From positions 1-43,573 of the IMG/VR virus record IMGVR_UViG_3300047564_000343: a stretch of 43,573 bases of DNA; one strand, written 5' to 3'. The notes beneath the pieces were generated by a model that saw nothing but the letters and a program-made list of their open reading frames with translations, made no database searches and was not told where the DNA came from. Positions 1 through 36,047 of the stretch are shown here, piece after piece. Each line of letters opens with the position of its first letter. Position 1 is the stretch's first letter. Position numbers and translations under genes: made by a program. The stretch is from a virus.

Positions 1-1018
1 TGAATTTCTTATAAACTTCTAAGAATTTTTTATCATCAGTTTTTACTAATTTACTTTCTATCTTATCGATGATTAGTTGTTTACCCTTTAAAGGAATAAC
101 ATCTACGCTCTGATCTTCAGGGTATACCAGTTTATTCATATGAATAGTGTTGTCCCCATCTAGATCTGGATATGATGTAACAATCCAATTATACCAATCA
201 GCAAACCCTAAAACGTTCATCCATGACAATGCATATTGAAAATTTATTCTAAACTTGTTGTCTTGCAATAGATAATACTTGTCGATATTTTTTCTTACTT
301 CGTTAAATTTTCCATTGAATCGTATGAATTCAAAAATATCATCGGTGCCGTCTATGCTGAAACCTAAACCCACATATCTAAGTTCTCTGGAATATTCATA
401 AATGCGTTCATCATAAATGCTTCCATTAGACAAAAAAGTTACCGCAGTTGTTTTAGCATACGGCTGATATGTTAACCATTCTAAGAATTCATATACTAAT
501 GGATTTATTAACGGTTCACCGCCTAAAATATTGAGATTGCATACAGGAATATCTTTATATCCTTGAGTTTTTAGAATTTTACTATAATGGAATGCATACT
601 CATTTAGTGCTGATTTAATAAATTCTAGTTTTTTTGGGCCCTGCTCACTAATGACCCTGTATAATTTATTATTATCTTTTTGTTCATTGGCGATCTGCGT
701 GCTATACCTAGAACTGCAATATGTGCATTTAAAGTTACATAGGTTGTCGAATGAGACAGTTATTCTAAATTCGTTATCACCGATAGTATCTTCTGCTTCT
801 TTTCGTTGACTATATGGATTACCATTTTTTTCTAAGTTAATACAATATTCGCAATTAGTTTCAATGTCTAATTTTGATAGTTGCTCCTGGTAGTCTTTAA
901 TATCTGTTGCGTCTATGTTTGTTTTAAAGTAGCAACAAGGGCGGTAGGCTTTCTCATCATTGCTGATGTAAACCCATTGCTTGTGAGCCTTACAATTTTT
1001 GTACGGCGTTAGATCCAT
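1..1018 (-). CDS. Radical SAM protein with N-terminal twitch-like Cys region (C-terminus cut by window edge)
   Basis: The frame opens at ATG 1018 and is still open at base 1, so 339 residues are visible and the C-terminus is missing. It begins MDLTPYKNC. The radical SAM core motif CNFKCTYC (C94, C98, C101) should hold the [4Fe-4S] cluster that cleaves S-adenosylmethionine, and LGGEPL at 165-170 is the SAM-binding GGE motif. Ahead of the core lie C9, the pair C28-C29, and C56/C59, an arrangement like a SPASM/twitch auxiliary cluster site moved to the N-terminus. The start overlaps the end of the upstream radical SAM gene by 10 bases, suggesting translational coupling. By eye it is more AT-rich than the next radical SAM genes. 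Substrate unknown. The radical SAM call is firm; a role in peptide or glycan modification is inference. Confidence 0.88.
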   Translation of the reverse strand, partial: MDLTPYKNCKAHKQWVYISNDEKAYRPCCYFKTNIDATDIKDYQEQLSKLDIETNCEYCINLEKNGNPYSQRKEAEDTIGDNEFRITVSFDNLCNFKCTYCSSRYSTQIANEQKDNNKLYRVISEQGPKKLEFIKSALNEYAFHYSKILKTQGYKDIPVCNLNILGGEPLINPLVYEFLEWLTYQPYAKTTAVTFLSNGSIYDERIYEYSRELRYVGLGFSIDGTDDIFEFIRFNGKFNEVRKNIDKYYLLQDNKFRINFQYALSWMNVLGFADWYNWIVTSYPDLDGDNTIHMNKLVYPEDQSVDVIPLKGKQLIIDKIESKLVKTDDKKFLEVYKKF

Positions 1019-2298
1019 TCACTTAATTCCTTGAACACATCTTTGAAATTTCTTTCTCTGCGTTTGTCGTACTCATTCGTGAATTTTCTAAATTGATCAG
1101 TACGCCATTCTCGCTCAACATCATTCATAGTAGTCTTGCGAGCCTTCCAGAAATCATAGACCATTTGCCATGTTTCTTTCTCTACGTTTTTGATCAAACT
1201 GTCGTTTTCTTTCATGAAATTGTTAGTATCTTCGAAATAACTATCAGCATGATCTGGAAGTATGCGCAGATCAAACTGCTTAGGATCTACTAATCGTGCG
1301 CAATTAAACATGATATCGATACCATCTTTACGAAACTCAATGACCTTCTTTATGAACGTCTTGAAATTGAACACACTCAACAATCCAAATGTTACCATGA
1401 TTCTTATGGGAACGTGGAATGTAGTGCTGACTTTGCGCACAGTATCTTCCCATTGTTGTACATCAAGACCGTCACGGATATACTCTGCTTGTGGTCCCCA
1501 TGTATCCATGCTTGTATATACTTCAAGACCCTTGATAGTCTTAGCATTCAACAATGTTGTAGCCTTCTCAAAGAACATTTTTAGATTCTTTTCAGGTACG
1601 CATAGATTTGTATTGATCACCAATGTAAGATTGGGGTTGTGATTTTGTGCTACGAAATCTAATAGTTTCATGAAGTTGCGTGTGGCTAATGGCTCACCAC
1701 CTGTGATTCTTAGATAACGCAAATCTTTATACGCATCGGGTAACCACTTCCAGAATGCATCGATGTAGGGATTGTCATCTTCCGGCAACATATCATGCAT
1801 CTTGTCTTTATGTACTGTAGGATCTTCGATAGGATAACTGCCCAATTTACGAACTTCATGCTCCCAGCGTGAACTCTGTCCTGGACTGCAATAACTACAT
1901 GCAAAGTTACAAGTGTTTGCGAAACTGATCTCTAAGTAACTAGGATTGATCGGCTTGTCGTAAGGTGCGTTCAATATCTCTGCTCTGCGTTCAATAGCCC
2001 ATGGCTCGTTAGTGAAACGCTTTCTATCACTTATGACATCAGGATTGATTGCTTCCATATCAAAACAGTAATAGCATTCTTTGGGCTTCTCACCATTCAT
2101 CATTTGTCTGCGCTGTTCTATCTTGTGACCTGTGTTGTGCAATGCTGAAGGGTCTTTGTCGGTCTCTTCACGCTTCCAACGATGTATCGGTGGGTGATAG
2201 CAACTATGGTTCTCGCCCATGCCGAAGTGCATAGTGACCATAAGCCACTTTGCCGCACAAAAACTATCTTTAATCTTTATTGGAATTTCTACGCTCAT
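1009..2298 (-). CDS. Radical SAM protein, N-terminal twitch type, AKW/CYHP subgroup (429 aa)
   Basis: CNFACSYC (C130, C134, C137) is a canonical CX3CX2C radical SAM motif, and TGGEPL at 199-204 is the GGE strand motif. N-terminal cysteines C14 (in DSFCAAKW), C33 (SCYHP), C75 and C78 (ECYYC) make four candidate ligands for one auxiliary Fe-S cluster. With the 510- and 521-aa neighbours it shares the CxAKW and CxHP motifs, an NPY..AFW.W segment before GGEP, and a C-terminal YDKRRERNF-type ending, so the three look like paralogues. The ATG lies in an ATGA overlap with the 392-aa gene and has an AGGTG Shine-Dalgarno-like sequence 7 bases upstream. Database relatives are usually named twitch domain-containing radical SAM proteins. 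Reaction and substrate are unknown. Confidence 0.9.
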   Translation of the reverse strand: MSVEIPIKIKDSFCAAKWLMVTMHFGMGENHSCYHPPIHRWKREETDKDPSALHNTGHKIEQRRQMMNGEKPKECYYCFDMEAINPDVISDRKRFTNEPWAIERRAEILNAPYDKPINPSYLEISFANTCNFACSYCSPGQSSRWEHEVRKLGSYPIEDPTVHKDKMHDMLPEDDNPYIDAFWKWLPDAYKDLRYLRITGGEPLATRNFMKLLDFVAQNHNPNLTLVINTNLCVPEKNLKMFFEKATTLLNAKTIKGLEVYTSMDTWGPQAEYIRDGLDVQQWEDTVRKVSTTFHVPIRIMVTFGLLSVFNFKTFIKKVIEFRKDGIDIMFNCARLVDPKQFDLRILPDHADSYFEDTNNFMKENDSLIKNVEKETWQMVYDFWKARKTTMNDVEREWRTDQFRKFTNEYDKRRERNFKDVFKELSEWI

Positions 2299-3473
2299 AA
2301 TATTTCACCTAATTCTGGTATGTAATCTTTATAACTCAAGTTTCTTGCTTTGTCTACTGCGTTGATGAACTGACTAGCCTTAGTTAATAATTCAGGATCA
2401 TGATCTATCATCAACTTAGCATACAATTCTTCACGCTGCCACTCATGTAATTTATCACTATAATAATCTTTCACTTTCTGCTTGTAACTTTCCGGTAATG
2501 CAGCCAGGCTTAGATAATCCGGATACAACACATAGTTGTGATGGGGTATCTTATTATAGTTTTTCTCAAGCCAGTTATTCAATGTATCTAGTGTCAATAT
2601 ATTCAATATGCTAACGGTCTGTGTGACATGCCAGTATACATTGTCAACCTTGTTTAATTTCTCTATGCTAGTGACAGTTTCATCCCATTGTGTAGGATAT
2701 CTGATATAATAGTTTCTGATATCATAATCATCAATACTTGCGTTGACTGTTACCTTCATGAATGACTTCCACAATTCTATCAGATTATCAGGAATATCCA
2801 TCATGTTTAGGCTATACACAAGATGCACTTTTTTGCTAGTGCCGTTCTTTATTAGATTTTCTAAGTATCTAAAGTGTGCTTTAATCAACGTTGGTTCACC
2901 GCCGTTGATATAAATCTCTTCTACACCCTCGCTATACTTCGTCAATTCATCATAGAATTCTGGATCTTCGAACCATTTAAAGTTCTCTACAGGACGCAGT
3001 TTGAACCAAGGTAAGTCCTTGCTTATTTTCTTTTCATCTGGATACCATTTGCTACTACTGTAACTGTTGCAAGTCAAGCAAGCATTGTTACAAACGTTAC
3101 CTAATCTTAATTCTATATAACGATAGTTAGGTCTTTTGATGAATGATGTCTTCTCAAGTTGATCAATGATATGTGCCCAGCGTTCATTTTCATATTGACG
3201 CTTGCTTTTGATGCCAGTGTCTTCATCACGCCAGCAACCTTCACACTCTATAGGGCGCCTGCCATCTATCATGTCTTGTCTTACTTTGATGAACTTATCG
3301 CTGTTGATGACATCATCAAGACCATCATTATCTAATGTGACTAAACTATTAGTACCTGTCTTTTTAGCCCAACTGACTGCATCATTATGATTGCTACGAC
3401 AGCATAGGCTAACACCGCCATTGGGATGTGTGGCTAAATGCATCCAGGGCAATACACATAATGTCTTGCTCAT
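2295..3473 (-). CDS. Radical SAM protein, N-terminal twitch/SPASM-like, CC subgroup (392 aa)
   Basis: The N-terminus CVLPWMHLATHPNGG followed by SLCC (C6, C24, C25) and then ECEGC (C77, C80) closely resembles a SPASM-type auxiliary cluster motif: C..PW, a glycine turn, CC, then P..C..C. Here it precedes the radical SAM domain, whereas SPASM normally follows it. The core CNNACLTC has C128, C132 and C135, and NGGEP is at 190-194. SPASM/twitch enzymes of known function mostly modify ribosomal peptides or proteins, but no precursor peptide is evident nearby. The gene has ATGA overlaps with both neighbours, and the end of the 465-aa gene (GGTGGG) serves as a plausible ribosome binding site. Function beyond radical SAM chemistry is unknown. 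Confidence 0.9.
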   Translation of the reverse strand: MSKTLCVLPWMHLATHPNGGVSLCCRSNHNDAVSWAKKTGTNSLVTLDNDGLDDVINSDKFIKVRQDMIDGRRPIECEGCWRDEDTGIKSKRQYENERWAHIIDQLEKTSFIKRPNYRYIELRLGNVCNNACLTCNSYSSSKWYPDEKKISKDLPWFKLRPVENFKWFEDPEFYDELTKYSEGVEEIYINGGEPTLIKAHFRYLENLIKNGTSKKVHLVYSLNMMDIPDNLIELWKSFMKVTVNASIDDYDIRNYYIRYPTQWDETVTSIEKLNKVDNVYWHVTQTVSILNILTLDTLNNWLEKNYNKIPHHNYVLYPDYLSLAALPESYKQKVKDYYSDKLHEWQREELYAKLMIDHDPELLTKASQFINAVDKARNLSYKDYIPELGEIL

Positions 3474-4867
3474 ATATTATCCCACCATTGTAGTAACTTA
3501 GGATTACGACTATAGATATCACGCAATGTTAACTTGGCTTCACGAATCTGTTCTAATCTATGTACCCAGCCTTTACCATTCTTAGCAGCCTGTCTGAATG
3601 TATCAGGCCACTCTTCTTCATGCGTCTTTCTAGCATTTTTCAATGCCTCTAAGTTAGCGATTAATGTACCGTGACGCCAATCATCTGCTTTAGGTCTGAT
3701 ATAATCAAGTATGTCATCACACATTTCATTCAACACTTCACGGGGCCAACTAGTTGGGCTCCACATGATATCAGGATGAAATGCAAATGTGATCTTTGTT
3801 TCGATCTTTACACCCAACTCGTTGCTTAAATCAAATAAGTCTTTCAATGCAAACATGCCAGGTGCTGTGATGGTCAAGTCAAGGACCATCTTTTGTCTAC
3901 CACCCGGTAGTTCACAACCACGCTTAAAGTTTTCTAGCCATTTATCCCACTTGATACCTGTGCGTATGTATTCAACGATTTCACCAGTGCCGTCGATACT
4001 TGCGCACATCATCCAATCTTTAAAATTAGGTAGATAGTCATATAGATTCTTGTCACCGAACTGCACACGGCTCAAGTTGCTATTATATCTTAGATAACAG
4101 TTTTTGGCGCTACCGTTCTTTAGCATTTCTTCCAACGTCCACCAATGTACATCATACATCAATGGTTCACCGCCTACCCAATACATTTCTTCAACTATAC
4201 CACGACTTACTGCATCACGGAATTCTGGTTCAACTACGGTCTGTTGAAAATCCTGCATTGCATCTTTGATTTCAGGAACCATGAATGGTTGATTCTTAGG
4301 AGTCCACATGTTGTGCAACTTCTTTTCAGTTTCCCATGAACTACTTAATTGCTCACCGCACATGCGACACTTGAAGTTACATAGATTGCTGAAGCGATAG
4401 TCAAATGATATAGGTTCCATAGTAGTATAACCTGTATCATCCGTCTTATCGAATGCCTCTTGTATCTTATGCTTGAATAACGTGCCGGTAAACCATCCAC
4501 GATAACTATGACCTTCCATCAATAGATTCTTATTACAAACATCACATTGCGGAATCTCTTCTCCGCGCATGAGTTTGACACGTATATCACGCATATAAGG
4601 ACTATTCCAATGCTCTTTAAGATTCATTGGTGTATATTTGTCTAATGATGTCTCACTATCTTTAGTTTTACCATAGCGTTCATCGTTACTGCTATCGATA
4701 TATTGTTTTTGAAAACTATGCTCTTCGCGGCTAGCACAACATAATCTACGTTCGCTCTGAGGACTTATATAGGTATGAGTCCAAGGAGCCATGCAAAAGA
4801 CTTTGTTTTGACTATCTTTAGCAGGCTTAGCATCATCGCCCCATATAGGAATTATTTTGTTGTCCAT
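3470..4867 (-). CDS. Radical SAM protein, N-terminal twitch/SPASM-like, CC subgroup (465 aa)
   Basis: CNFKCRMC (C163, C167, C170) is the radical SAM core and VGGEPL at 231-236 the SAM-binding motif. The N-terminal auxiliary-type cysteines are C25 (FCMAPWTH), C43-C44 (RLCC), C108 and C111 (CDVC). About 20 residues precede the first conserved cysteine, more than in the 392-aa paralogue. The start overlaps the SGNH hydrolase end by 16 bases, and the end overlaps the 392-aa gene by ATGA. The C-terminus (LRDIYSRNPKLLQWW) differs from the RRxxNF ending of the AKW subgroup, so this is a separate lineage within the cluster. The upstream ribosome binding site is weak, which fits translational coupling. 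Substrate unknown. Confidence 0.9.
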   Translation of the reverse strand: MDNKIIPIWGDDAKPAKDSQNKVFCMAPWTHTYISPQSERRLCCASREEHSFQKQYIDSSNDERYGKTKDSETSLDKYTPMNLKEHWNSPYMRDIRVKLMRGEEIPQCDVCNKNLLMEGHSYRGWFTGTLFKHKIQEAFDKTDDTGYTTMEPISFDYRFSNLCNFKCRMCGEQLSSSWETEKKLHNMWTPKNQPFMVPEIKDAMQDFQQTVVEPEFRDAVSRGIVEEMYWVGGEPLMYDVHWWTLEEMLKNGSAKNCYLRYNSNLSRVQFGDKNLYDYLPNFKDWMMCASIDGTGEIVEYIRTGIKWDKWLENFKRGCELPGGRQKMVLDLTITAPGMFALKDLFDLSNELGVKIETKITFAFHPDIMWSPTSWPREVLNEMCDDILDYIRPKADDWRHGTLIANLEALKNARKTHEEEWPDTFRQAAKNGKGWVHRLEQIREAKLTLRDIYSRNPKLLQWWDNI

Positions 4868-5577
4868 TTTAGTTCTCGTAGTTTAGGTAATACCAAATTA
4901 TTTGTTATAGATTTATGACCTTCATCACTAGGGTGTTTAGTATCATCTATCTGATTTATATCAATGACGTACTGATCGATTCCGTGTGCGATGCCATTCT
5001 TTTCATAAGTTAAAGTTTCACAATTGAGTGGGAACTCAGAAAAATTCATTTCTTCTACAGTATGTGCATTGTGCAACCCTAATAAAAATAAAAATTTATT
5101 ATTTTTAAGTTTGAGTGCTTCTGATAAAAGATTCATCTGAAAAGAAAAATCTCTCACTCTATCTACATCATCATACGCCGAGGCATATGACCAATATTCT
5201 TTCCCCCATTTAGGAAGTTGAGCCTTTATTCCCGACAATAGATACAGTTTACCATAAATCTCTTTTATAAGAGTAGGGTAATTTTGAATGATATTATGAT
5301 TATCTGCAAATAAACGCCCATGTGTATTCGGTGAAATATCAATGTCCTCTCTGCTTATCGAGGTAGATTGATATATTACAATACAATCAACAAAATCTAA
5401 TTTTTTATAATACCAATGAGAATAAAAATTATGCAAAATAGTTTTATTAGATGCACCCGACACAGAGAACTTGACTACAGGTTTGTCAATCACAGTTGAT
5501 AGGTGGTCAGCCCAACTAAATTTATAGTCAGTAAAACTGTCACCTATCGCTATGATTGAATCCTTGATCAACTTCAT
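4852..5577 (-). CDS. SGNH/GDSL-family hydrolase (241 aa)
   Basis: IIAIGDSFTD near the N-terminus places the block I nucleophile at S14, and DTKHPSDEGH near the C-terminus gives the block V Asp-x-x-His pair (D212, H215). These are the ends of an SGNH esterase/acyl-hydrolase fold, and 241 aa is a normal length. Family members remove or transfer acyl groups, often acetyl, on glycans or lipids. I could not place the block II Gly and block III Asn with certainty. No signal peptide or membrane segment is obvious, so it probably acts in the cytoplasm or inside the assembling particle. It lies between two radical SAM genes, with an ATGA overlap upstream and a 16-base overlap downstream. It is clearly more AT-rich than the flanking genes, suggesting separate acquisition. 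The acyl substrate is unknown. Confidence 0.72.
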   Translation of the reverse strand: MKLIKDSIIAIGDSFTDYKFSWADHLSTVIDKPVVKFSVSGASNKTILHNFYSHWYYKKLDFVDCIVIYQSTSISREDIDISPNTHGRLFADNHNIIQNYPTLIKEIYGKLYLLSGIKAQLPKWGKEYWSYASAYDDVDRVRDFSFQMNLLSEALKLKNNKFLFLLGLHNAHTVEEMNFSEFPLNCETLTYEKNGIAHGIDQYVIDINQIDDTKHPSDEGHKSITNNLVLPKLRELKWTTK

Positions 5578-7106
5578 AGTAAGTCTGGATTTACAAACTC
5601 TTCTTTACTAGGATCTTCAGGAGGATGCTCTGGCACTAAGTCCATGCCCGGACGATAATTGCCCGTGATGATCTCAGCACTTGAAGGCACTTCAGTATCA
5701 ATGCTGTCATACCATGCAACGAATTCTTCCGGGAAAGTCTCACGGAAATTCTTTGCACGGCGTACATCATACTGACTATAGAATTGCTTGAAGTCACGCT
5801 TGTTCTGTTCTGGATCCTTGACGTTCTTGTGAGGTGTCTTGATAACGTCAAGATAGTCAACAAGGCGTTGTGTCTGTTCACGCTCAATAGCAGTCAAGAT
5901 AGGTTCACCGTTAGTAGTTCTCTCGTCAAGATGAATATTGAAGTTTAACCATTTCTGCAACTGGTCGCTATATTTCTGACGAATATCCATTGGAAGCATA
6001 GCGCAACTTTGGAAACTTGGGAAACGTAGAATATTTAAACTCATAGTTGGATATGTTGAATCATGCTTACGCTTGAACTTCAATATCTCGTCCATGAATT
6101 CTGTGATGCTAGCCAAGCATAGGCTATTGATAGTCATCATAATATGTGTGCGCTTGACATTGCCTTCAGTATGCAGTCTCTCTAAGTTGCGCAACCATAT
6201 ATCCCAATTGAATCCATCGCGTATATATTCGCTATGCTTACCCATGCTCTCACAACTTGTGTACACTTCAAGCCACGGAACATAGTGACTCAATTCAATG
6301 AATCTATCCATGAGATCGTCTTTAGGTACTAGGTTGCTATTGATAGCATAACGCATGACTTTACCATCAGGGCGATTCTTAACACGCTCTTGATTAGCCT
6401 TGAACCATTCGAATAGTTTCCATACGCCGGCTGCCATTAATGGCTCGCCACCAGTGATACGGATCTCTTCTAGGTTATCCGCAAGACCGTTTGGTTGTTC
6501 CCACCATTGCCAGAAGGCTTTAGTATATGGGTTTTCTTCATCAGGGATAGGCTTAGCGTGATCTGCTTTGTTGATGAAGTGACTACGTGCGTCTCCATTG
6601 ATGTTGCGATATGGTCCGAACTTCGATATATCTTTTACCCATGTAGTACTAAAACTTGGATTGCAGTATGAGCAAGCAAAGTTGCAAGTTCTATCGAATG
6701 CGATCTCAAGTGTGCGCAACATAGTGTTTTCTTGCCAGTCTGCCTTAGCAGTCTGTTCGATATACTCCTCTTGGTGAACCGCAGTCTTGTATACACGGTC
6801 GCTGATATTACCGCGATTGATGTCTTCAATCTTCCAGCAATATTCACATTCTTGAGGACGTGTACCCTCCTGCATCATCTTACGCATCAATTTCTTATGC
6901 GGTGTGTTATGAATAGCAGTAGGATTATCTTTAAGTTCCTTAGCATCGATCTGATGCCCCAATGGGTGGTGACAACTTGCTGTCTGTCCGTTACCCAACC
7001 AAATAGTAGCATTTAGCCACTTAGCGGCACAATAACTGTCGCTGATTACATCAATGACTCGCTTCTTGTACCCCGCGTATGTTTCATCGTTTCTTTTGCC
7101 TGCCAT
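5574..7106 (-). CDS. Radical SAM protein, N-terminal twitch type, AKW/CHHP subgroup (510 aa)
   Basis: The core CNFACSYC has C141, C145 and C148, and TGGEPL is at 218-223. N-terminal candidate cluster ligands are C26 (SYCAAKW), C45 (SCHHP), C87 and C90 (CEYC). It shares HNTPHK and NPYTKAFW.WW with the 521-aa neighbour and the 429-aa gene, and a YDVRRAKNFRETFPE ending. It then has an extra Pro/Glu-rich tail of about 45 residues (ending EEFVNPDLL) absent from its paralogues. The ATG follows a TTGAGGA ribosome binding site that overlaps the stop of the 521-aa gene 7 bases upstream. Duplication from its neighbour is likely but the two are well diverged. Substrate unknown. Confidence 0.9.
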   Translation of the reverse strand: MAGKRNDETYAGYKKRVIDVISDSYCAAKWLNATIWLGNGQTASCHHPLGHQIDAKELKDNPTAIHNTPHKKLMRKMMQEGTRPQECEYCWKIEDINRGNISDRVYKTAVHQEEYIEQTAKADWQENTMLRTLEIAFDRTCNFACSYCNPSFSTTWVKDISKFGPYRNINGDARSHFINKADHAKPIPDEENPYTKAFWQWWEQPNGLADNLEEIRITGGEPLMAAGVWKLFEWFKANQERVKNRPDGKVMRYAINSNLVPKDDLMDRFIELSHYVPWLEVYTSCESMGKHSEYIRDGFNWDIWLRNLERLHTEGNVKRTHIMMTINSLCLASITEFMDEILKFKRKHDSTYPTMSLNILRFPSFQSCAMLPMDIRQKYSDQLQKWLNFNIHLDERTTNGEPILTAIEREQTQRLVDYLDVIKTPHKNVKDPEQNKRDFKQFYSQYDVRRAKNFRETFPEEFVAWYDSIDTEVPSSAEIITGNYRPGMDLVPEHPPEDPSKEEFVNPDLL

Positions 7107-7113
7107 GTTATCC

Positions 7114-8679
7114 TCAATGTTGTGTATATGCTTTTACGCACTCTTTCCAATAGTTTTTAAACTCAGGAAAGGTGAGTAAGAAGTTTGTGCCCCGTCTTTT
7201 GTCAAATTCTTTAATAAAAAGATAGAAATTCTTCTTATTTATTGACTTCTGATTTTGGGGTAAAGATTCCTTCATTACTGCTAAATCTCGCTTGACTTTT
7301 AGTATCTCATAGGGCTTGAAGCCCTCAAATGTCTCTAGGTAGTCATCACCTTGTACATTATCTTCCATAAACTTCAAACAGCGTTCTACTTCTTGTATCT
7401 CAGATTCAGTAGCGTTCGACACGCTAAACCATGGTGGGAATCTAAGTATGGGTATGTCGAAAAACACACGCTGAAACTTCTTTTGAGTATAGACTTTGTG
7501 TACTATGCCGTGTTCTTTTTCTGTCTCGGTTTGCTCAGGATTAATAGTGAACTCAGTCTGCATACGACCGCCGAACTCTTTACGCAACTCTAATATCATC
7601 TCAAGGAACTTGTGTAGGCTTGGAATGCTCAATAAGTTAAACGTATTGATGAAACTCACCGTAGTATACTTTGTCTCACGCAAGAAAGTCCTGATGTTGT
7701 TTAACATCCTATCATATTCTAATCCGGTGCGCATGTATTCTGCTTGCTTACCCGCACCATCTAATGATACGAATAGCCAAAAATGCTTGAAGCCTTTATC
7801 TACATACCAGTGATTTCCGCTGAACTCGTTGAAGTTTTCCTTGTCTTCATATGTACGCAACTCTTCGATAGCCTTGACCTTCTCAAGGAACTTGTCAAAT
7901 AGTTTCTGATCGGGCGGGCACATATTACTTGTGATACTCAATTCAAGTTGACCATGGGGGTTCTTATTCACATAGTCTAAGACTTTGAATGTGTTCTTAT
8001 CCATGAGTGGCTCGCCACCTGTCATACGGAACACACGCAACTTTCTATAGATAGTAGGCCACCACTTCCAGAATGCCTCGACATAAGGATTTTCTTTCTG
8101 CGCTACTCTAATGGGCATGAGGCCTTTTTGTTCTAATGATGGTAGATCATTATGAACATAATTATCTAACACGAATCCGCCATACTTTCGTACTTCTTCT
8201 TCCCATGTCGTTGACAAGTGTGGACTGCAATACATGCACTTGAAGTTACATGCTTGGTTGAAGTTGACTTCTACATATCGAGGAGTCACATCGTAGTCCC
8301 AGGGATTACCTGTAACTTCATCAAATGTAGGTGCGTTCCACCATTCACTACTGCGATAATGACGATCACTCAAATGACCTTTAGGGTCATCACTTTGCGC
8401 ATCTTCTACACGCCAGCAATATGCACAGCCTTCAGGTCGTTTGCCTTCTAGCATCATCTTGCGTTCACTAATCTTTTGCGGTGTGTTATGTAATGCGCTT
8501 GGTTGTTTTTCTAACAACTCTACAGGAATCTTGTGTGTAGGAGGATGATAGCAACTCTGCGTCAGTCCTTGCGGCAAGTGTAAACTGACTTGTTGCCATT
8601 TTGCTAGACATAGAGAAGGACTGACCGCATTCAAGCGGTCACGCATATCTCTAGCAAACTGATCATATTCTCCCGACAT
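7114..8679 (-). CDS. Radical SAM protein, N-terminal twitch type, AKW/CYHP subgroup (521 aa)
   Basis: CNFKCMYC (C144, C148, C151) is the radical SAM core and TGGEPL at 220-225 the SAM motif. N-terminal C24 (SLCLAKW), C43 (SCYHPP), C85 and C88 (CAYC) provide four further cysteines in twitch-like spacing. The C-terminal EFDKRRGTNFLLTFPEF matches the same position in the 429- and 510-aa paralogues, defining a subgroup signature. The region between the GGEP motif and the mid-protein SLDGAGKQAEYMRTG is longer than in the paralogues. The gene shares one base with the glycosyltransferase-like gene upstream (TAATG), with a GAGGG ribosome binding site. It is the first radical SAM gene of the series in transcription order. 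Substrate unknown. Confidence 0.9.
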   Translation of the reverse strand: MSGEYDQFARDMRDRLNAVSPSLCLAKWQQVSLHLPQGLTQSCYHPPTHKIPVELLEKQPSALHNTPQKISERKMMLEGKRPEGCAYCWRVEDAQSDDPKGHLSDRHYRSSEWWNAPTFDEVTGNPWDYDVTPRYVEVNFNQACNFKCMYCSPHLSTTWEEEVRKYGGFVLDNYVHNDLPSLEQKGLMPIRVAQKENPYVEAFWKWWPTIYRKLRVFRMTGGEPLMDKNTFKVLDYVNKNPHGQLELSITSNMCPPDQKLFDKFLEKVKAIEELRTYEDKENFNEFSGNHWYVDKGFKHFWLFVSLDGAGKQAEYMRTGLEYDRMLNNIRTFLRETKYTTVSFINTFNLLSIPSLHKFLEMILELRKEFGGRMQTEFTINPEQTETEKEHGIVHKVYTQKKFQRVFFDIPILRFPPWFSVSNATESEIQEVERCLKFMEDNVQGDDYLETFEGFKPYEILKVKRDLAVMKESLPQNQKSINKKNFYLFIKEFDKRRGTNFLLTFPEFKNYWKECVKAYTQH

Positions 8680-9632
8680 TACCAGCCCTCGATCCTGCGT
8701 ATCACATCCATCTCAGTAACCAATGGGCCTAGATTATGCTTGTCACTATTATAATGACGTTTGAAGAACTTGCTTTGATCTGGCGTCAATGTGCAGATCG
8801 GTAATCCTAACTTGTGTTGAAGTTGTGCCCCTACATCTTCCATAGCGACTTTAGGATCTTTACCTTCACTATATTCTTTCCACAGTTCAGGATAGTTGTC
8901 AAACCATTGTACATTGGTATGATCCCATTCAGACAACATTGTTAAGAATGTACCTAGCCTTGCACCATACATAGCCCAATAACCATTTTCTACATCACTA
9001 CCAACATTCTGCCATATAGTTAGATTGTTAAGATTACGGCTTGCTACAGAGTCTTTGAACTCTTCTACTGTGGGTACCGCACCTTTGTTCAAGCACATCT
9101 TTACGCCTTCGCGGAAACCTGCGCGCCATGCTTGAAATGGTGTATAGTTAGGATATGTCGTTGAGTAACAATCATACATTGCCCAATATAAATTATCTTT
9201 ACTATCTAAACAGAAATCAGCCACACGGGCTAGATCGCCTTCAGTCTGATGCTCATGTGTTTTCATCTCACGCACATAAGTCTTTGTCCAACTGCTCATG
9301 CCACCATTACCATAGCGTAATCCATTGATAGCGTTGATAGCCTTCCAGCGAAACTGTGCTAACTTATACTTAGGGTCTTTATCCGTGAAGTCTAATTGAA
9401 TGTTAAAGAATGATTCATCGGGCATGTTATCCCCGTCGATAAGGATGAATCGTTCTGTATCGCTTGCTTCGCCGGCTGCTTTATGTGCGGCATCACTACC
9501 TTTGACACCATCAACACGCTTTGCCCAAGGAACCATGTTTTGAATCTGCATCCAGAATTCTTCTTTCTGCGGTTCATCATAACTCAAGTATATACAGTCT
9601 AACTCTGCAATGTCTACAATATCATAACTCAT
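8679..9632 (-). CDS. Putative glycosyltransferase, GT-A-like (317 aa)
   Basis: The segment RFILIDGDNMPDESFF (DGD at residues 66-68 from the chosen start) looks like the nucleotide-sugar/metal-binding DxD region of GT-A glycosyltransferases. RYGNGGMSSW at 107-116 resembles an acceptor or substrate loop. Trp and Tyr are abundant. I chose ATG 9632 (MSYDIVDIAELD): it overlaps the 120-aa gene by 11 bases, whereas the longer frame to 9680 would start at TTG, overlap by 59 bases and add a poorly structured leader. An ATG at 9671 is a third option. It lies directly upstream of the radical SAM genes and is coupled to them. Family assignment is from motifs only; sugar and acceptor are unknown. Confidence 0.6.
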   Translation of the reverse strand: MSYDIVDIAELDCIYLSYDEPQKEEFWMQIQNMVPWAKRVDGVKGSDAAHKAAGEASDTERFILIDGDNMPDESFFNIQLDFTDKDPKYKLAQFRWKAINAINGLRYGNGGMSSWTKTYVREMKTHEHQTEGDLARVADFCLDSKDNLYWAMYDCYSTTYPNYTPFQAWRAGFREGVKMCLNKGAVPTVEEFKDSVASRNLNNLTIWQNVGSDVENGYWAMYGARLGTFLTMLSEWDHTNVQWFDNYPELWKEYSEGKDPKVAMEDVGAQLQHKLGLPICTLTPDQSKFFKRHYNSDKHNLGPLVTEMDVIRRIEGW

Positions 9633-9978
9633 ATGTGTGTAATTTCCATTTTTGTTGTTCAGGGTATCCATCGCCGACAATAATACTGATATCTGATTCT
9701 GCTGTGCGTTGACCTTCGCTATCAGGTTTTAGTTTTTGTACGATCATGCCGGGAATCACTTTCGATATCTTACCATCTATAACTCTGACATCCATGCGCA
9801 TTTCGCTGAAAGTCTGATTGTCGATGATGATATAATTTCCTTCTGGTTTTTCACAGGTGTAAAATTGTACACTACCATCATCATTGTAGTATAATCTAAA
9901 CTCTACGGGCTGTTGTACAGTTTCTTCTGCCACTAGATATTCTACCCCGTTTATTTCGATTACTTTAAGTCTTTCCAT
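9622..9978 (-). CDS. Conserved-looking hypothetical protein (118 aa)
   Basis: I do not recognise a domain. The protein is acidic and beta-rich in appearance: MERLKVIEINGVEYLV, a single cysteine in YTCEKPEGNY, then QTFSEMRMDVRVIDGK and a polar tail ending KWKLHTYEL. There is no signal peptide or membrane segment. ATG 9978 is preferred over an in-frame GTG at 9984, reducing the overlap with the upstream glycosyltransferase gene to 14 bases. It lies between two glycosyltransferase-like genes and is surely part of the same transcript. A structural accessory or small substrate or partner of the module are both possible, with no direct evidence for either. Confidence 0.7.
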   Translation of the reverse strand: MERLKVIEINGVEYLVAEETVQQPVEFRLYYNDDGSVQFYTCEKPEGNYIIIDNQTFSEMRMDVRVIDGKISKVIPGMIVQKLKPDSEGQRTAESDISIIVGDGYPEQQKWKLHTYEL

Positions 9979-10768
9979 ATGCACGTTCTATTTTACTACA
10001 AAAACCCTTAACATGATAATGAAAAGGATACTTTTGCGGTACTGTATTCACCCTTAAACTATAAGGTGTTATCTCATATATAAGTTGATCAGTCCAGTCT
10101 TCTGTTTTCAGTTCATTGATAGCCTGTTTCATGTGAATCATACTGAAGTCACGAAACATCGGTAATGTAGTTTTTTCAGAACCTATGATGTGGCAAGCAA
10201 TAGCATATACCCAATCTGTTGTTGCTTCTTCATCGACTTTGCATTGTATTACAGTCTTATAGTCGTTCCAATTTTCAAAAATATGTTTTACTAATTTAAA
10301 AAAGTATTCGCCTGTGCTAGATTTTTTAAAATAAGTGATAGCGTTATAGCAATCAGGTAAGTTATTGTTATCGATGAATTTTCTATAAAATCTGTTTGTA
10401 GATATGTTTTGATCATAACTTCTTATGTTAGTGCAGACCACTACATCTTGTACAGAACAAACGTCAAACCAATGCTCAATCGATCTAGGCATATACAGAT
10501 CGGCTTCTAGTTTGATAGTCTCATCATATGGACTGGCTTCATACACTTGCCAATCATTGATTAGTTTCCACTCGCTGTCTTTTGCTTGATCACCATACGG
10601 TAGTGCGATAACTTGATCAAAGTATGGACTAGAATCAACGTCATCACTCACTAATGAGATATTCATGTTGGGCATGACTTTCTTGACACTTCTAGCCAAA
10701 ACTTCTGCACATTTTACATAATCAACATCTTTTGTGTTTTGTGCTAGTACTAGGAAACCTTTGCTCAT
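9965..10768 (-). CDS. Putative glycosyltransferase, GT-A-like with EAD in place of DxD (267 aa)
   Basis: It begins MSKGFLVLAQNTK and has an N-terminal nucleotide-binding-like half followed by EASPYDETIKLEADLYMP. The upstream paralogue has ELSPYDETILLDVDYVV at the same place, so EAD (88-90) occupies the DxD position. This resembles GT-A enzymes of the GT8-like or stealth-like sort that read a donor sugar from a short DxD-type loop. ATG 10768 forms an exact ATGA overlap with the upstream stop and has GGAG 8 bases before it, so I prefer it to the GTG at 10774. The first acidic residue is Glu rather than Asp, which may be tolerated or may signal altered metal or donor use. The product and target glycan are unknown. 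Confidence 0.62.
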   Translation of the reverse strand: MSKGFLVLAQNTKDVDYVKCAEVLARSVKKVMPNMNISLVSDDVDSSPYFDQVIALPYGDQAKDSEWKLINDWQVYEASPYDETIKLEADLYMPRSIEHWFDVCSVQDVVVCTNIRSYDQNISTNRFYRKFIDNNNLPDCYNAITYFKKSSTGEYFFKLVKHIFENWNDYKTVIQCKVDEEATTDWVYAIACHIIGSEKTTLPMFRDFSMIHMKQAINELKTEDWTDQLIYEITPYSLRVNTVPQKYPFHYHVKGFCSKIERAYGKT

Positions 10769-11577
10769 TCGCACAACTCCATGAAGATATCTTTATTGAT
10801 GACATGAAAATCCATATTCTTGATTGTGATATATTCTTTCTTAATCTTGCCACGCATCCACTTGTCATATACGATTGTATAATCTGTACAAAATTCATCA
10901 TCATTATTCTTATACACATATGTCTTAGGGCCTATATGTGTGAGATTCCAAGGTATGACATCTGATCTTACATCTGCGTGTCCATTAACTATCCTATGTG
11001 CTATAGTCAATCCATAGTCATTGCGATATGTATCACATGAGAATTTATGTATATTCCCATAATGTTGATAGTTCTCTTGCACCATCTTTAAGCATTGAAA
11101 GATATTCTCGACTCTTTTTGTCTTTTTAAAACCCACAACAGTAGCCCATAATGTAGGTAATGTCAATACGTTACTAAAATCAAGATGTTCTTTTTTGTTG
11201 TATTCATTCATCAAAAAGTTGATTGATTCGTGGCAGCAAAAATCATCCATTACATCAAACACTTTAAGTAAGGTATCAGAGTTAACTACATAATCCACAT
11301 CTAATAAAATAGTCTCGTCATATGGGCTTAATTCATAACTACGATAACGGCCTTTGTTTAGCCATACTCTTCCTTGAAATGTATTATTAGGGTCGCTATC
11401 TATAGTATAGACATTATCGAAAGCATAACCAGTACTGGTTGCGTAGGAGTTTTTATCAGTAACTATGCTTACTGGTAAATTTAAAAAATGATTGACTCGC
11501 TTTGCTGTGAACTCTGCCATTTTGAAGTAGTTATACTCAGGCGAGTTAAACGCAAAAAGCAATATGCCTCTATTCAT
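10765..11577 (-). CDS. Putative glycosyltransferase, GT-A-like (270 aa)
   Basis: MNRGILLFAFNSPEYNYFKMAE leads a Rossmann-like N-terminal half. SPYDETILLDVDYVVNS then holds a DxD motif (D93-V-D95), the usual metal/nucleotide-sugar site of GT-A glycosyltransferases. The SPYDETI signature and overall length match the next gene, making them tandem paralogues. The start is an ATGA overlap with the 101-aa gene. Base composition is notably AT-rich, unlike the third glycosyltransferase-like gene at 8679-9632. No membrane anchor is visible, so it is probably a cytoplasmic enzyme acting on a phage or host acceptor. The exact GT family cannot be fixed by eye. Confidence 0.65.
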   Translation of the reverse strand: MNRGILLFAFNSPEYNYFKMAEFTAKRVNHFLNLPVSIVTDKNSYATSTGYAFDNVYTIDSDPNNTFQGRVWLNKGRYRSYELSPYDETILLDVDYVVNSDTLLKVFDVMDDFCCHESINFLMNEYNKKEHLDFSNVLTLPTLWATVVGFKKTKRVENIFQCLKMVQENYQHYGNIHKFSCDTYRNDYGLTIAHRIVNGHADVRSDVIPWNLTHIGPKTYVYKNNDDEFCTDYTIVYDKWMRGKIKKEYITIKNMDFHVINKDIFMELCE

Positions 11578-11879
11578 CTTTTAGTCTCTAACTCTTTAAA
11601 CTCGCTAAGGTATAAACTCATGGTTTCTTGATGAACCGTTTTAAGTTTGGTTAGAAGAGATAGTCTATCTATTTCGACAGGCCTATTGTGTGTATCGATC
11701 AATATTACTTTATCTGTGTCGAAACTTTGAAGTGTTGCTATGGTGGTAACATCGGCAACCCATAGCCCGTTTTGGTCAGCGACCAAAAATTTATTTTTGT
11801 ATTTTTCTCTTAAGTAATCTTTAGCAGAATTGTGGGCGAACCGTGCTTTGGCTTCAGACAACAAACTTTGGATATCCAT
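11574..11879 (-). CDS. Small hypothetical protein, first gene of the accessory module (101 aa)
   Basis: No domain recognised. The N-terminus (MDIQSLLSEAKARFAHN) and C-terminus (HQETMSLYLSEFKELE) look helical. They flank a short beta-type middle (KFLVADQNGLWVADVTT, DKVILIDTHNRPVEI). The gene has a strong ribosome binding site, GAGGAG at 11885-11890, five bases from the ATG. It directly follows a TATAAATA late promoter motif at 11898-11905, so it heads the transcript that continues into the glycosyltransferases and radical SAM genes. The stop overlaps the next start by ATGA. A virion accessory or a regulator/partner of the module would both fit. Confidence 0.75.
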   Translation of the reverse strand: MDIQSLLSEAKARFAHNSAKDYLREKYKNKFLVADQNGLWVADVTTIATLQSFDTDKVILIDTHNRPVEIDRLSLLTKLKTVHQETMSLYLSEFKELETKR

Positions 11880-11927: not shown

Positions 11928-12875
11928 TTAGGCTGTAACGTTCGCGCCGGCTAAAGTGATGGCGCCCCAAGTATTGGCGATATTAGTTGTTGACGGTGGC
12001 ACCAATGTGCAAGTCACGGTTGAACCACTACCAACTGTACCGTTACCACTTATCTTGTCGAATAAGCAATGAACAGTAACTACGGAACCGTTATCACCAT
12101 TTGAACCCTGCACACCATTCGTTCTTGCTAGATATTGAATCTGAACTGTAGTAGTATATGGTGCTGTGCCTGAGTCTTGGTCAAAGATTGTTGTGTTTGC
12201 TGTGCCTAGTCCGAAATAACCTGAGTTAGTTGAGACTGTTGGTGAACCGCTACCGCCTGTCTTAGTGACCCCTGTGTATGATGTACCTGCAATAGTGCGT
12301 GAACCTGAGTTCTGACCACTGATATTGAGAGTACCTGTTGCAGTTGCCAATGTCTGCATGGCAGCGTTAATACCTGCTGTGCTATTTGAGTGCGAGCATG
12401 TGAACTTCAACTGACCGCCTGCATTGAAGAAATAACGAGCGGCATCACCGTTCGCAAATGTGCAAGTGAATGTGAAGTTTGCATAGTCTGTCCATGCGGC
12501 AGTAGTAGTTTGTGTGTTGGAAGTAGTACTACCTTGTGCAGTAGCATTGCCTCTGCTTCCCCATATGGTCTGTAAATTTGTAGGAATTGCGCTGATGAAA
12601 GTGACGATACCGCCTGCTACCGGAGCAGTAACACCAGTAATGGTTGAACCCTGATGTGCGGCTGCGCTAGCAGTATTATTAACTAATGCTGCCCAGTTTG
12701 TGGCTGCTACAACTTGGCCGGATGCTACGTTAGCAACAGCAGTCTGACCATAACCGCCTTGACCGCTACCTGTAGCCCAAGTAGCATTTAAAGTGTTGGC
12801 CGATGAAGTAGGATTACCTCCAACCAAGTTGTTAAAGTCTGTTGCTTCAATCAAATTAAATTGTGCGTAGCTCAT
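11928..12875 (-). CDS. Virion/tail-fibre-associated protein of marine T4-like phage type (315 aa)
   Basis: MSYAQFNLIEATDFNNLVGG, GQGGYGQTAVANV and ARYFFNAGGQLKFTCSHSN resemble a protein family I associate with tail regions of aquatic T4-like phages. Composition is typical of phage adhesins and fibres: rich in Thr, Ser, Gly, Ala and Asn, few charged residues, no signal peptide. The C-terminal half alternates short beta segments. It probably sits at the tail or baseplate periphery; binding to a receptor is inference. The ATG follows a TAGGA ribosome binding site and its own GATAAATA motif. The gene stops 48 bases before the accessory module. A specific fibre name is not justified. Confidence 0.65.
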   Translation of the reverse strand: MSYAQFNLIEATDFNNLVGGNPTSSANTLNATWATGSGQGGYGQTAVANVASGQVVAATNWAALVNNTASAAAHQGSTITGVTAPVAGGIVTFISAIPTNLQTIWGSRGNATAQGSTTSNTQTTTAAWTDYANFTFTCTFANGDAARYFFNAGGQLKFTCSHSNSTAGINAAMQTLATATGTLNISGQNSGSRTIAGTSYTGVTKTGGSGSPTVSTNSGYFGLGTANTTIFDQDSGTAPYTTTVQIQYLARTNGVQGSNGDNGSVVTVHCLFDKISGNGTVGSGSTVTCTLVPPSTTNIANTWGAITLAGANVTA

Positions 12876-14765: not shown

Positions 14766-17700
14766 TTAAGTAACATCCACTTTTAAGAATCTAGCACCTG
14801 CTGTATCAGCGATCTGTAAAGGATCTCCCTCAGTCACGTTATAGACCCCGGGTATAGGATTCCAGACACTATTGTAATTAGTCTCGGTCATCTTGTTGTA
14901 TTCTAAAATACTGAATACTGTGCTGTATCTAGGAATAGTTGGATTTATGATAGATCCTAACACTCCTCTTTGTACATCGATTGTGTTTAGGTCCTCATCA
15001 ACTCCCAATATCTGCATGTATTCACCATTGACATAGATGAACTTACCTTCTAGTGTAGTGATAGTCAACATATCACCTGTGCTGATCCAGTCGCCGTCTT
15101 GTATAGAAACTAATGCTCCTAAACCGCTTGCGCTTAATATCAAGTAATCCTGATCTATATCAAGACCTTTAGTATCATTATGAACCTTGACTTGTAACGT
15201 ATCTAGCCTATTTGATATCAAGGGTACAGTACGATATCCAAACTCGCTATTAGGTGTAACTGAAGTCTGTGTGACTTTATTGGTCAATCTAGTCGAGTCT
15301 GCTACTTTTATAGTAGTTGCATACTCACCGACACGCTCACTCAACCAAGTTCTTGTTTCAGAATTTGCGCGGTATACACTTGATTGTCCCGCAACATCTA
15401 CTATCTGTAGATAAGTCTGTTGATCAGGTGTTGCTGAAGGCATCATGCTAGTGATGATGACTGTATCAGTTGGTAATATTTCAGTCAATATAGATACTTC
15501 ATTAGCATCGTGCAATTTCAATTTGCTTGACGCTACGCGCTGTCCGTTAACTGTTACCCATAGACGATCAACATTTGTCTGCTCCCATTGAGCGACATTT
15601 ATATTCAAGCCTGACTGTACAGATAATGTTTTCGCAACACCGTTTCTAGTATTAGAAATACTAAACTTGTCGTTACTACTGTCTATCTCAATTACTTCCT
15701 TGATATAGTATTCTACACCAGCAACAATCTCTGGTATGTTTGTTGGGTCGCCAAGGTCTTTACCTGCTTCTGTGAAGTATACCGGAGTTCCTTCTACTAA
15801 ACCAGTTGCTTTGTTTACAAAAATATAATTTGCATCACTTGATACTGCTATCTTGTTATATAACATATAACTCTGATGTAATGAAACATATCCACCACTT
15901 ACGTAAGTGTTAACATCGGTCAACGGTACTGACGCTGTGTATGGGACATTAGGTATATACTCATATAGTGCAAATGTGTCCGGAGTCAATACATTGATTG
16001 TGAACAACTGTCCATTTAATTGCACCGATCCTGATACACCTTCTATTCGCACTACGTCATTGTCAGATAAATTATGTCCAGGAGCAGTTACTACTGCAGG
16101 TATCACTACGTTGTTTACATAAGTGATTGGAGTCACTTGCTGTCCTGTATACTGATTAGTAAACAGGTATTGTCTGTTTGTATCATTGTAAGTAGTTACA
16201 GCGATGGTGCTTGAACTGCTCGGAGTCAATGAATTGAATACCAATGCACCTGTAGTATAATTGACATTGTATTCTGTTGGACTTCTTCTTAATCCGTCAA
16301 CTTCAACTACGGCATTTTCTGGATTGAATCCTGACAAGTTATTTGTCAATATATATGGTCCAACGGTGCCGTTACCTAAGAACTGCTGTGTCTGCGGTAT
16401 TGTGAATCCATATTGTAACGGCTGTGTTTCGCCGAAGAATGAGTATGAAATATAATCTGTTAACATATCATAATGATCAGCGAACACAACTTTCGCAGTT
16501 ATCTGATTATCAGCAGGCATAGCCGCATAGTCTTCTGTGACAAATAGTGCGGTGCCAGTAGCACCTATTAATGTTACGGGATTACCAAATTGATCTTTGA
16601 TGGTGAAAGCAGTTCCCGACAGTACTTGATCTATATAGTAACTAACCAACGGAGTTATTCCACCGAACATTGTTTCGCTAAATGTAATTCTTTGATCTGT
16701 GAGGAATCCAGTTGTGCTGAATGTTGTAATCGAATTATTGATTGCATTTGTAGATATAGCATAATTTGCTAGACCCGGTACCAACTTAGTGCCATTGTAG
16801 AATACCGCAGGTTCTGTATAGAATTCTCCGTCAGTATATACTTGCACTATACCACCGCCATTATAATCTAGATTGGTGTAATTGCAATCGAGTGCTATCT
16901 CATCGAATCCAGTAGTCAAATTGATTTCGATAGGGTCGTTATCAGTATTTGATTTAACTAGTTGCTCACCGTTACCAACTTCATAAACATCAATGCGTAC
17001 TTTTTGTCCTGATGTTAATGGGTTATTCAAAAACACAATCTTATTATACCAATCAACAGTATAATCAATATTTTCATATAATGTGATGCTTAATCCATCA
17101 ACCATGAAGAACACATTTATTTGTGCTGGCGTCTGAGTAGCATAACCAAATTTATATTCATTTGTTATTGTTCTATCAAGTTCTAATGAAACAACTTTGT
17201 ATCCTACATGCGCATATTGATTTGCTGGCCAATTTGTTCCTGGTCTTGTGTTTACAGTCATCACTAACTGATCCGACACGATACCCGGCACCATTTCTTC
17301 TGGGCCATAACCTGACATGAACGGATCACCTTGTATAGTGTATTCTGTTCTGACTTCTTGGAATATATTAGTAGTGCCCCACAATACTGTGCCGGCTGTG
17401 ATGTTGCTAGTCTGTAACACAGTATTGTTGTTACCAACTATAGTCCATTGATTCTTTTCAGGCACATACATTACGCTGTTTAGATTTTCAGTAGTTCCCG
17501 TAGTCTTAGTCACGAAATTAATACCATCCGTAGATGTTTGTACCAATCCGTTATTTCCTACTAATACTAATATTCCATTGGCATAGTATACATCGTTGAA
17601 TACGTTACCTGTTGACGTAATTAATGTCCAATTAGTACTGTCTGTGCTATAGGCAATAATTTGATTACCTACCGCATATATCTTACCGAATCCCGATGTT

Positions 17701-35597: not shown

Positions 35598-36047
35598 TTA
35601 TTGTGTATTTGCTTTGTTTGTAGTGCTATCTAAGAACACACTTAACAATTGCGCTTCATTGAACGGTTGTACTGCTAATTCAACTTCTAACAGTATGCCA
35701 TTCTCTTGCGGGTATGCTTTAACTGAGTTTAAAACTATTCTAGGATCCAAACTAGCAACACGGGTGATCTCATTTTCTAGGCTAAATTGAACATCAGGGG
35801 TATTGGGTTCGAAAACAAAGTTCCACAATGTGGTACCATATTGCGGTTGCCCTACTTTCTCCCCTTGACGTATATTCAACGCATTGATGAAATCTTGTAT
35901 GACTAACGTTTCGTCAGTTACTTTAAACTTTTTACCCGCGCTTATCCCATTGGTTATTGATCCTACACCACCGTCAATACCCGGTTTGGCATTGGTAGTC
36001 TTGGGTTTGTTTGCGTTTACTGTAGAAAAACCAATATATTGAGGCAT
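35598..36047 (-). CDS. gp25: Baseplate wedge protein gp25 (149 aa)
   Basis: The C-terminal two thirds is a GPW/gp25 domain: VIQDFINALNIRQGEKVGQP, YGTTLWNFVFEPN, ENEITRVASLDPRI, then ILLEVELAVQPF. In T4, gp25 (132 aa) joins gp6 near the sheath-initiation face of the baseplate and resembles lysozyme-like sheath-polymerisation initiators of contractile systems. About 35 Gly/Lys-rich residues precede the domain, longer than in T4. No alternative Met is available downstream. There is almost no Shine-Dalgarno sequence, because the 12-base gap after gp5 is occupied by TATAAATA. Position between gp5 and gp6 agrees with the assignment. Confidence 0.95.
   Translation of the reverse strand: MPQYIGFSTVNANKPKTTNAKPGIDGGVGSITNGISAGKKFKVTDETLVIQDFINALNIRQGEKVGQPQYGTTLWNFVFEPNTPDVQFSLENEITRVASLDPRIVLNSVKAYPQENGILLEVELAVQPFNEAQLLSVFLDSTTNKANTQ

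Follow-up and report, generated by a model that had tools for sequence, protein, structure and literature searches.

The window, the whole 43,573-nucleotide stretch analysed here, is assigned by sequence to an uncultured T4-superfamily jumbo phage. A T4-superfamily myovirus tail module is present, with gp6-, gp25- and gp5-like baseplate genes all found: the gp6-like wedge (32158-35544, PHROG 10646), which is closest to those of Phosso, Atu_ph07 and Rak2-like jumbo phages, the gp25-like wedge (35598-36047, PHROG 261/43) and a gp5-like gene (PHROG 13211). Adjoining the gp6-like wedge, and upstream of the operon described below, is a tail-module gene encoding a giant protein of 5796 aa (14766..32156, minus strand), which is conserved in relatives.

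A run of backbone genes, all on the minus strand, follows the tail genes. The one that adjoins them encodes a Ser/Thr/Gly-rich protein (11928..12875), found in one to three tandem copies in relatives, whose composition and position make it a candidate acceptor. Two small proteins of 101 aa (11574..11879) and 118 aa (9622..9978) are conserved in the backbone of the phage relatives and have no Pfam match. Between them lie genes for two putative GT-A-like proteins, a (10765..11577) and b (9965..10768), which are homologous to each other (hhalign probability 99.3%). Protein a carries an LLDxDY motif in which D93 and D95 are invariant, and in protein b the DxD is replaced by EAD. Neither gave a significant family or PDB match, the profile search of the PDB yielding glycogenin at E 1.5. 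The last gene of the run, W8679 (8679..9632), has 218 matching stretches in IMG/VR and no Pfam match. A model of W8679 reached medium confidence (pLDDT 75); the PDB folds ranked highest against it are those of GT-A enzymes and of nucleotidyltransferases related to them. The best match is the PBCV-1 glycosyltransferase A64R (2p6w, 2p73; E 6e-4), in a partial alignment with TMq 0.22; profile search of PDB sequences did not recover A64R. The aspartates of the DxD motif, D66 and D68, are invariant in 33 sequences. W8679 is therefore predicted to be a glycosyltransferase, from its modelled GT-A fold together with the invariant DxD.

Directly behind W8679, open reading frame calls and profile search place six radical SAM (rSAM) genes between positions 2 and 8679, all on the minus strand: R6 (7114..8679), R5 (5574..7106), R4 (3470..4867), R3 (2295..3473), R2 (1009..2298) and R1 (2..1018). 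The first-pass annotation described six rSAM genes in a row. All six are present, but a predicted SGNH/GDSL-like hydrolase gene (4852..5577, minus strand) stands between R4 and R5; its product has a GDSFTD motif and a PF00657 match below the cut-off (E 0.0016). This gene is an optional member of the cassette, with a 56% identical match in one related locus (L067) and none in another (L066). From R1 to W8679, neighbouring genes overlap by 1-16 bases or stand 7 bases apart. Promoter and terminator scans of the window gave signals near the shuffled background. The array is, if anything, larger than first described: the contig end cuts R1 and truncates it, and relatives have 8-13 N-twitch rSAM genes per block and up to 17 per phage record.

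Inspection of all six proteins confirmed CX3CX2C (CNFKCTYC in R1), GGEP and four or five cysteines earlier in the protein. Their best match is NCBIfam NF033640 (N_Twi_rSAM, twitch domain-containing radical SAM protein), whose curated cut-off of 170 bits is exceeded by R2 (297.9 bits), R3 (342.9), R4 (313.3), R5 (295.9) and R6 (292.2); the truncated R1 scores 159.2 bits. Pfam also places SPASM (PF13186) at residues 6-81 of R3 and SPASM at residues 25-112 of R4. The N-terminal position of the auxiliary cysteines, remarked on as unusual in the first pass, thus holds for all six but is not peculiar to this phage, an N-terminal twitch being the defining trait of NF033640. The cysteines lie at residues 9/28/29/56/59 in R1, 14/33/75/78 in R2, 6/24/25/77/80 in R3, 25/43/44/108/111 in R4, 26/45/87/90 in R5 and 24/43/85/88 in R6. 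The four-cysteine pattern is not due to chance, because 381 of 382 complete homologues have C-x(14-24)-C-x(15-110)-C-x2-C ahead of the rSAM core, as against 1.2% of shuffled N-termini and none of 187 non-rSAM phage proteins. All four are invariant columns in an alignment of 43 sequences and are putative ligands of a [4Fe-4S] cluster. R6 gave a confident AF2 model (pLDDT 88). The closest PDB folds of the rSAM model include SuiB and anSME, with viperin, BlsE and NifB ranking alike, and the structural match covers little outside the rSAM core. We searched the literature and met with no paper that addresses the function of NF033640, nor with experimental work on what N-twitch rSAM enzymes do.

The six genes fall in separate clades of the phylogenetic tree, which marks them as old, distinct lines. 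Recent tandem duplication was rejected on this ground, and also because bacterial and phage members are mixed in the clades of R3-R6; that of R3 includes bacterial relatives, and that of R4 both marine phage and bacterial ones. Nor are they pseudogenes, since the frames are intact and purifying selection acts strongly on each of R2-R6 (dN/dS 0.02-0.06; 0.02-0.04 for R2 against close relatives). The copies are indeed non-identical, and a multi-step pathway, as the first-pass annotation suggested, is supported because the lines are separate and old and because selection on R2-R6 is strong. Several of the six lines are common to marine phages and chromosomes of Bdellovibrionota, a phylum of predatory bacteria. 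The bacterial copies are located in chromosomal islands, some near GT2, SIS and PfkB carbohydrate-kinase genes; other bacterial arrays (L147, L209) have no sugar gene nearby. Relatives of W8679 adjoin an N-twitch rSAM gene in two Bdellovibrionota genomes. The order R5-R4-R3 is kept in L147, but R3 and R4 are swapped in L211, so exact synteny was dropped and the claim limited to a shared gene set. These homologues may reflect gene transfer only and are not taken as a sign of the host.

Giant freshwater and marine phages share a layout in which the rSAM operon lies directly behind the tail genes, and this attachment to the tail module is conserved over 80 freshwater loci. With genes in the relatives called as plain ORF picks, an rSAM gene directly follows the W8679-type gene in 74 of 76 freshwater loci, an N-twitch rSAM gene specifically in 64 of the 76, and N-twitch rSAM is present in every one of the 53 loci whose downstream sequence runs to 9.5 kb or more. 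After this pair comes a swappable cassette, which contains between one and eight N-twitch rSAM genes together with a varying choice of genes for nucleotide-sugar epimerases, FkbM methyltransferases, a NodU-type carbamoyltransferase and SGNH-like proteins. The rSAM genes thus share their slot with nucleotide-sugar and glycan-tailoring genes, including NAD-dependent epimerase genes (23 of 53 loci), dTDP-sugar epimerase and UDP-glucose dehydrogenase. The idea that rSAM-rich and sugar cassettes are mutually exclusive was discarded, the number of rSAM genes having no relation to epimerase presence (p 0.98). Genes for IscU and A-type carriers are present as well in the long records. No sequence matches to W8679, R5 or R6 were found in about 50,700 phage records, and the only hit that sequence search gave among phage isolates was a weak one for R3, from a single-cell marine virus. 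Fold and profile comparison did bring out three N-twitch members in the cultured phage KVP40 (KVP40.0260,.0261 and.0272), all below the cut-off; KVP40.0272 is two genes away from a gene annotated with a PF00534 glycosyltransferase match. The picture for an association with virion genes is mixed: it holds for phage copies of the clade, which lie by tail genes, but not for the bacterial copies or for KVP40's three, which are in a non-structural region.

Somewhat short of even confidence, we read the window as carrying the front part, cut off by the contig end, of an operon that is linked to the tail genes and tailors a glycoconjugate. W8679, probably with the two GT-A-like genes upstream, would build or attach a carbohydrate. 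Each N-twitch rSAM enzyme would then abstract hydrogen from one position and pass the electron to its N-terminal auxiliary [4Fe-4S] cluster, and successive steps would give keto-, epimerised or deoxy-sugars. Optional carbamoyl-, methyl- and SGNH enzymes may complete the decoration, and the product, most likely on the tail or virion, would vary surface chemistry. A carbohydrate substrate is supported by the predicted fold of W8679, with capsid-glycosylating A64R as best match, by its pairing with rSAM genes in phages and two Bdellovibrionota genomes, by the epimerase, dehydrogenase, FkbM and carbamoyltransferase genes in the slot, and by the sugar genes near some bacterial N-twitch genes and KVP40.0272. 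The four-cysteine twitch, as in the aminocyclitol oxidiser BtrN (PMC9012708), points the same way, and the IscU and A-type carriers are counted here too. Against it stand W8679's missing Pfam match, partial fold match and medium-confidence model, the sugar-free arrays L147 and L209, PqqD-like proteins beside 9 of 45 bacterial loci, and the indifference of rSAM number to epimerase genes.

In the first pass the preferred role was modification of a peptide or protein. We place it behind glycoconjugate tailoring because the two best-studied twitch enzymes, BtrN (aminocyclitol) and MoaA (GTP), use small molecules (PMC9012708), the slot holds sugar genes, profile search found no PqqD-like (RRE) protein in any of 80 phage loci, and the genes from R1 to W8679 overlap or abut, leaving no room in the operon for a precursor-peptide gene. 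Virion proteins may still be the substrates, although no result implicates them directly. In that case radical epimerisation, cross-linking, or thioether or C-C bond formation would act on proteins such as the 5796-aa tail protein or the Ser/Thr-rich one (11928-12875), with the glycosyltransferases acting on the same proteins. SPASM-type relatives use peptides, the closest folds include SuiB and anSME (though equalled by viperin, BlsE and NifB), the PqqD-family proteins hint at peptides at the bacterial loci, and every phage of the clade has the operon behind its tail genes; the match confined largely to the rSAM core weakens the comparison, and we consider direct modification unlikely. More doubtful still is a change to the host surface polysaccharide during infection, through superinfection exclusion or receptor change, as the pelagimyophage paper proposes for glycosyltransferases in a similar host-recognition region with variable rSAM cassettes (PMC7029224). 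UDP-glucose dehydrogenase and epimerase genes would fit, but no O-antigen-type flippase or acyltransferase was recognised among the genes examined, and late expression is likely because the operon shares its strand with the tail genes and lies a short way downstream of them. Least probable is a diffusible small molecule or secondary metabolite, similar to the proposal for a jumbo-phage cluster with carbamoyltransferases in S-SSM6a (PMC7824862). The many oxidative and transfer enzymes, plus a carbamoyltransferase, agree with it; the fixed place behind the tail genes does not, nor was a carrier-protein or exporter gene recognised among the phage neighbours examined.

Returning to glycoconjugate tailoring, a more speculative extension, which we think rather unlikely in full, is an assembly line in which dissimilar N-twitch rSAM enzymes and a dedicated glycosyltransferase make radical-modified tail sugars, some of these ancient enzymes having passed between giant phages and Bdellovibrionota. 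If the tailoring reading is right, it would mean that phages employ radical chemistry for surface diversification.

Two earlier papers already recorded phages with many rSAM genes, or rSAM cassettes within a host-recognition region: TARA_ERS488813_N000010 is a T4-like phage with 12 rSAM genes (PMC5332604), and pelagimyophages carry rSAM cassettes in a host-recognition cluster (PMC7029224). They resemble the present phage in combining many rSAM genes with Fe-S assembly genes and in having cassettes in the tail-fibre region; the text accessible from those papers gave no description of gene order, twitch placement, a glycosyltransferase partner or bacterial relatives, and we found no description of the conserved glycosyltransferase-rSAM operon in the literature. 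PBCV-1 A64R is the best fold match of W8679, but by part of the fold only. BtrN and MoaA likewise have an rSAM core and one auxiliary-cluster domain (predicted here), with four cysteines as in BtrN (PMC9012708), but their twitch is C-terminal whereas that of the window proteins is N-terminal. The SPASM peptide maturases SuiB, anSME and PqqE share the rSAM core fold, and Pfam SPASM falls in the N-terminal part of both R3 and R4; their auxiliary domain is at the opposite end, and the phage operon has no recognition element or precursor. NF033640 agrees with the six in cysteine pattern and length. Its model description gives no reaction. The window has many members in one operon behind a glycosyltransferase gene. 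This conserved context, one glycosyltransferase gene with a constant rSAM partner and a swappable cassette in more than two hundred aquatic phage contig stretches, offers a direct test bed for the chemistry of the N-twitch family.

The window contains six radical SAM (rSAM) genes, R1 to R6 (2-8679, minus strand throughout), which bear the CX3CX2C and GGEP motifs and extra N-terminal cysteines reported in the first-pass annotation. The six had been described as lying in a row; all are present, but an SGNH/GDSL-like gene separates R4 from R5. All six have as their best family match NCBIfam NF033640, an already known enzyme family defined by an N-terminal twitch (N-twitch) domain. Five exceed its cut-off, while R1 falls slightly below because the gene runs off the contig. 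In R3 and R4, Pfam places a SPASM-type domain N-terminally. Four extra cysteines do not vary across an alignment of 43 relatives. The four-Cys pattern precedes the rSAM core in all but one of 382 complete homologues (381), compared with 1.2% of shuffled N-termini and 0/187 non-rSAM phage proteins. R2-R6 are under purifying selection (dN/dS 0.02-0.06), indicating that each is used.

Directly before R6 in operon order lies W8679 (8679-9632, minus strand), predicted by a medium-confidence model to adopt a GT-A glycosyltransferase (GT) fold, with PBCV-1 A64R its closest match; its DxD motif is invariant. Two genes farther upstream, homologues of one another, may also be GT-A-like, judging by motif. 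From W8679 through R1, neighbouring genes overlap by 1-16 bases or lie 7 bases apart, which fits a single transcript. The operon is preceded by a T4-type tail module with gp6, gp25 and hub genes and a giant tail-module protein several thousand residues long, after which come small proteins and GT-like genes. A Ser/Thr/Gly-rich protein of ~315 aa (11928-12875) adjoins the tail genes and occurs in 1-3 tandem copies in relatives (L101; G010:135892-138745).

The array extends further in relatives than the window shows. Scanning viral contigs with R3 gave 20 relatives, the closer of which, if not cut short, carry about 8-13 N-twitch genes in a single block and a more distant group four; single records have up to 17 N-twitch matches. 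Earlier studies had described phages carrying a dozen rSAM genes (PMC5332604) and rSAM cassettes located within a host-recognition region (PMC7029224). With W8679 as query, 80 further loci were found, which share the same backbone up to W8679. The next gene encodes an N-twitch rSAM protein in 64/76 loci and another rSAM protein in 10/76, and among the 53 loci whose downstream sequence reaches 9.5 kb or more, each has between one and eight N-twitch genes. The cassette behind this pair is variable and may include a NodU-type carbamoyltransferase, SGNH-like proteins, a methyltransferase and a short-chain dehydrogenase; sister phages carry a dTDP-sugar epimerase, NAD-dependent epimerases, UDP-glucose dehydrogenase and FkbM methyltransferases, with an epimerase-type gene in 23 of the 53 loci. 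Some sister phages encode a 640-aa B12-binding-like radical SAM protein in this region (L082:18340-20262). Behind the cassette, proteins of 777-2048 aa (L030/L031, record G003:79029-83312; G001:13995-20141) are built from many FDFSWHPDPTDPPYIYVFGNQW-like repeats and end in a W8679-like C-terminus; they look like a multiplied piece of a GT-A domain.

In long phage records there are, in addition, genes for IscU and A-type Fe-S carriers, first reported from marine T4-like phages (PMC5332604). A compact carrier-IscU-carrier cluster (G010:C1:73428-74440; G011:C1:87125-88137) suggests that the phage provides for the Fe-S enzymes it encodes. The rSAM/W8679 system is nearly absent from isolate phages. 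Cultured phage KVP40 has three N-twitch-like rSAM genes with the same cysteine pattern, under the NF033640 cut-off (KVP40.0260,.0261 and.0272; L217:9056-18497, KVP40 135-144 kb), annotated as moaA/nifB/pqqE family or heme biosynthesis domain. The region around them is non-structural, and one of the three lies two genes away from a gene with a glycosyltransferase match.

An R6 profile scan of bacterial and archaeal genomes matched mainly Bdellovibrionota. It also hit four contigs from other bins (L149, L157, L159, L160), which bear the phage backbone and probably belong to marine phages. NF033640 members exceed the cut-off in 30/114 sampled Bdellovibrionota genomes. Some Bdellovibrionota-type chromosomes hold islands of seven or more N-twitch genes, some beside core genes (G017:C1:745-775 kb; G018:C15:635-666 kb; G021:C7:90-100 kb), and such a genome has up to 33 NF033640 matches at E<=0.001; L211 also adjoins an integrase-like gene. 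In a tree, R1-R6 fall in separate clades, those of R3-R6 mixing bacterial and phage members. One bacterial locus (L147) keeps the R5-R4-R3 order beside ribosomal-protein genes, and W8679 relatives adjoin N-twitch rSAM genes in two Bdellovibrionota genomes. In the open-access literature we found no description of the conserved GT-rSAM pair with its swappable cassette, of this set of old rSAM lines common to phages and Bdellovibrionota, or of the near absence from isolate phages.

Since GT partners and sugar genes share the same slot, the most economical reading, which we put forward tentatively, is that the enzymes sequentially oxidise or epimerise the carbohydrate of a tail or virion conjugate. 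Direct modification of a peptide or virion protein is rather doubtful; the tight W8679-R1 spacing leaves no space for a precursor-peptide gene. Bacterial neighbourhoods differ from those of phages: PqqD-like proteins occur at 9/45 bacterial loci (confirmed over the Pfam cut-off at one and by weak NCBIfam matches at others) and a nucleotidyltransferase-like family at 15/45, each against 0/80 phage loci. One bacterial locus (L165:1967-2469) has, near an R6 homologue, a 66-aa peptide gene together with genes for a PqqD-like protein and GT2-like, S26-like peptidase and CysD/CysN-like genes, which may form a RiPP-like cluster. A change of host surface seems unlikely, and production of a diffusible metabolite is improbable.

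Twitch domains are normally C-terminal and bind one auxiliary cluster. For sequential carbohydrate oxidation or epimerisation, the auxiliary cluster of the N-terminal four-Cys twitch would accept an electron, allowing net two-electron oxidations. Among known twitch enzymes, MoaA acts in GTP cyclisation and BtrN, whose twitch is ligated by four Cys, in aminocyclitol oxidation (PMC9012708); the phage enzymes likewise have a four-Cys twitch, but at the N-terminus.
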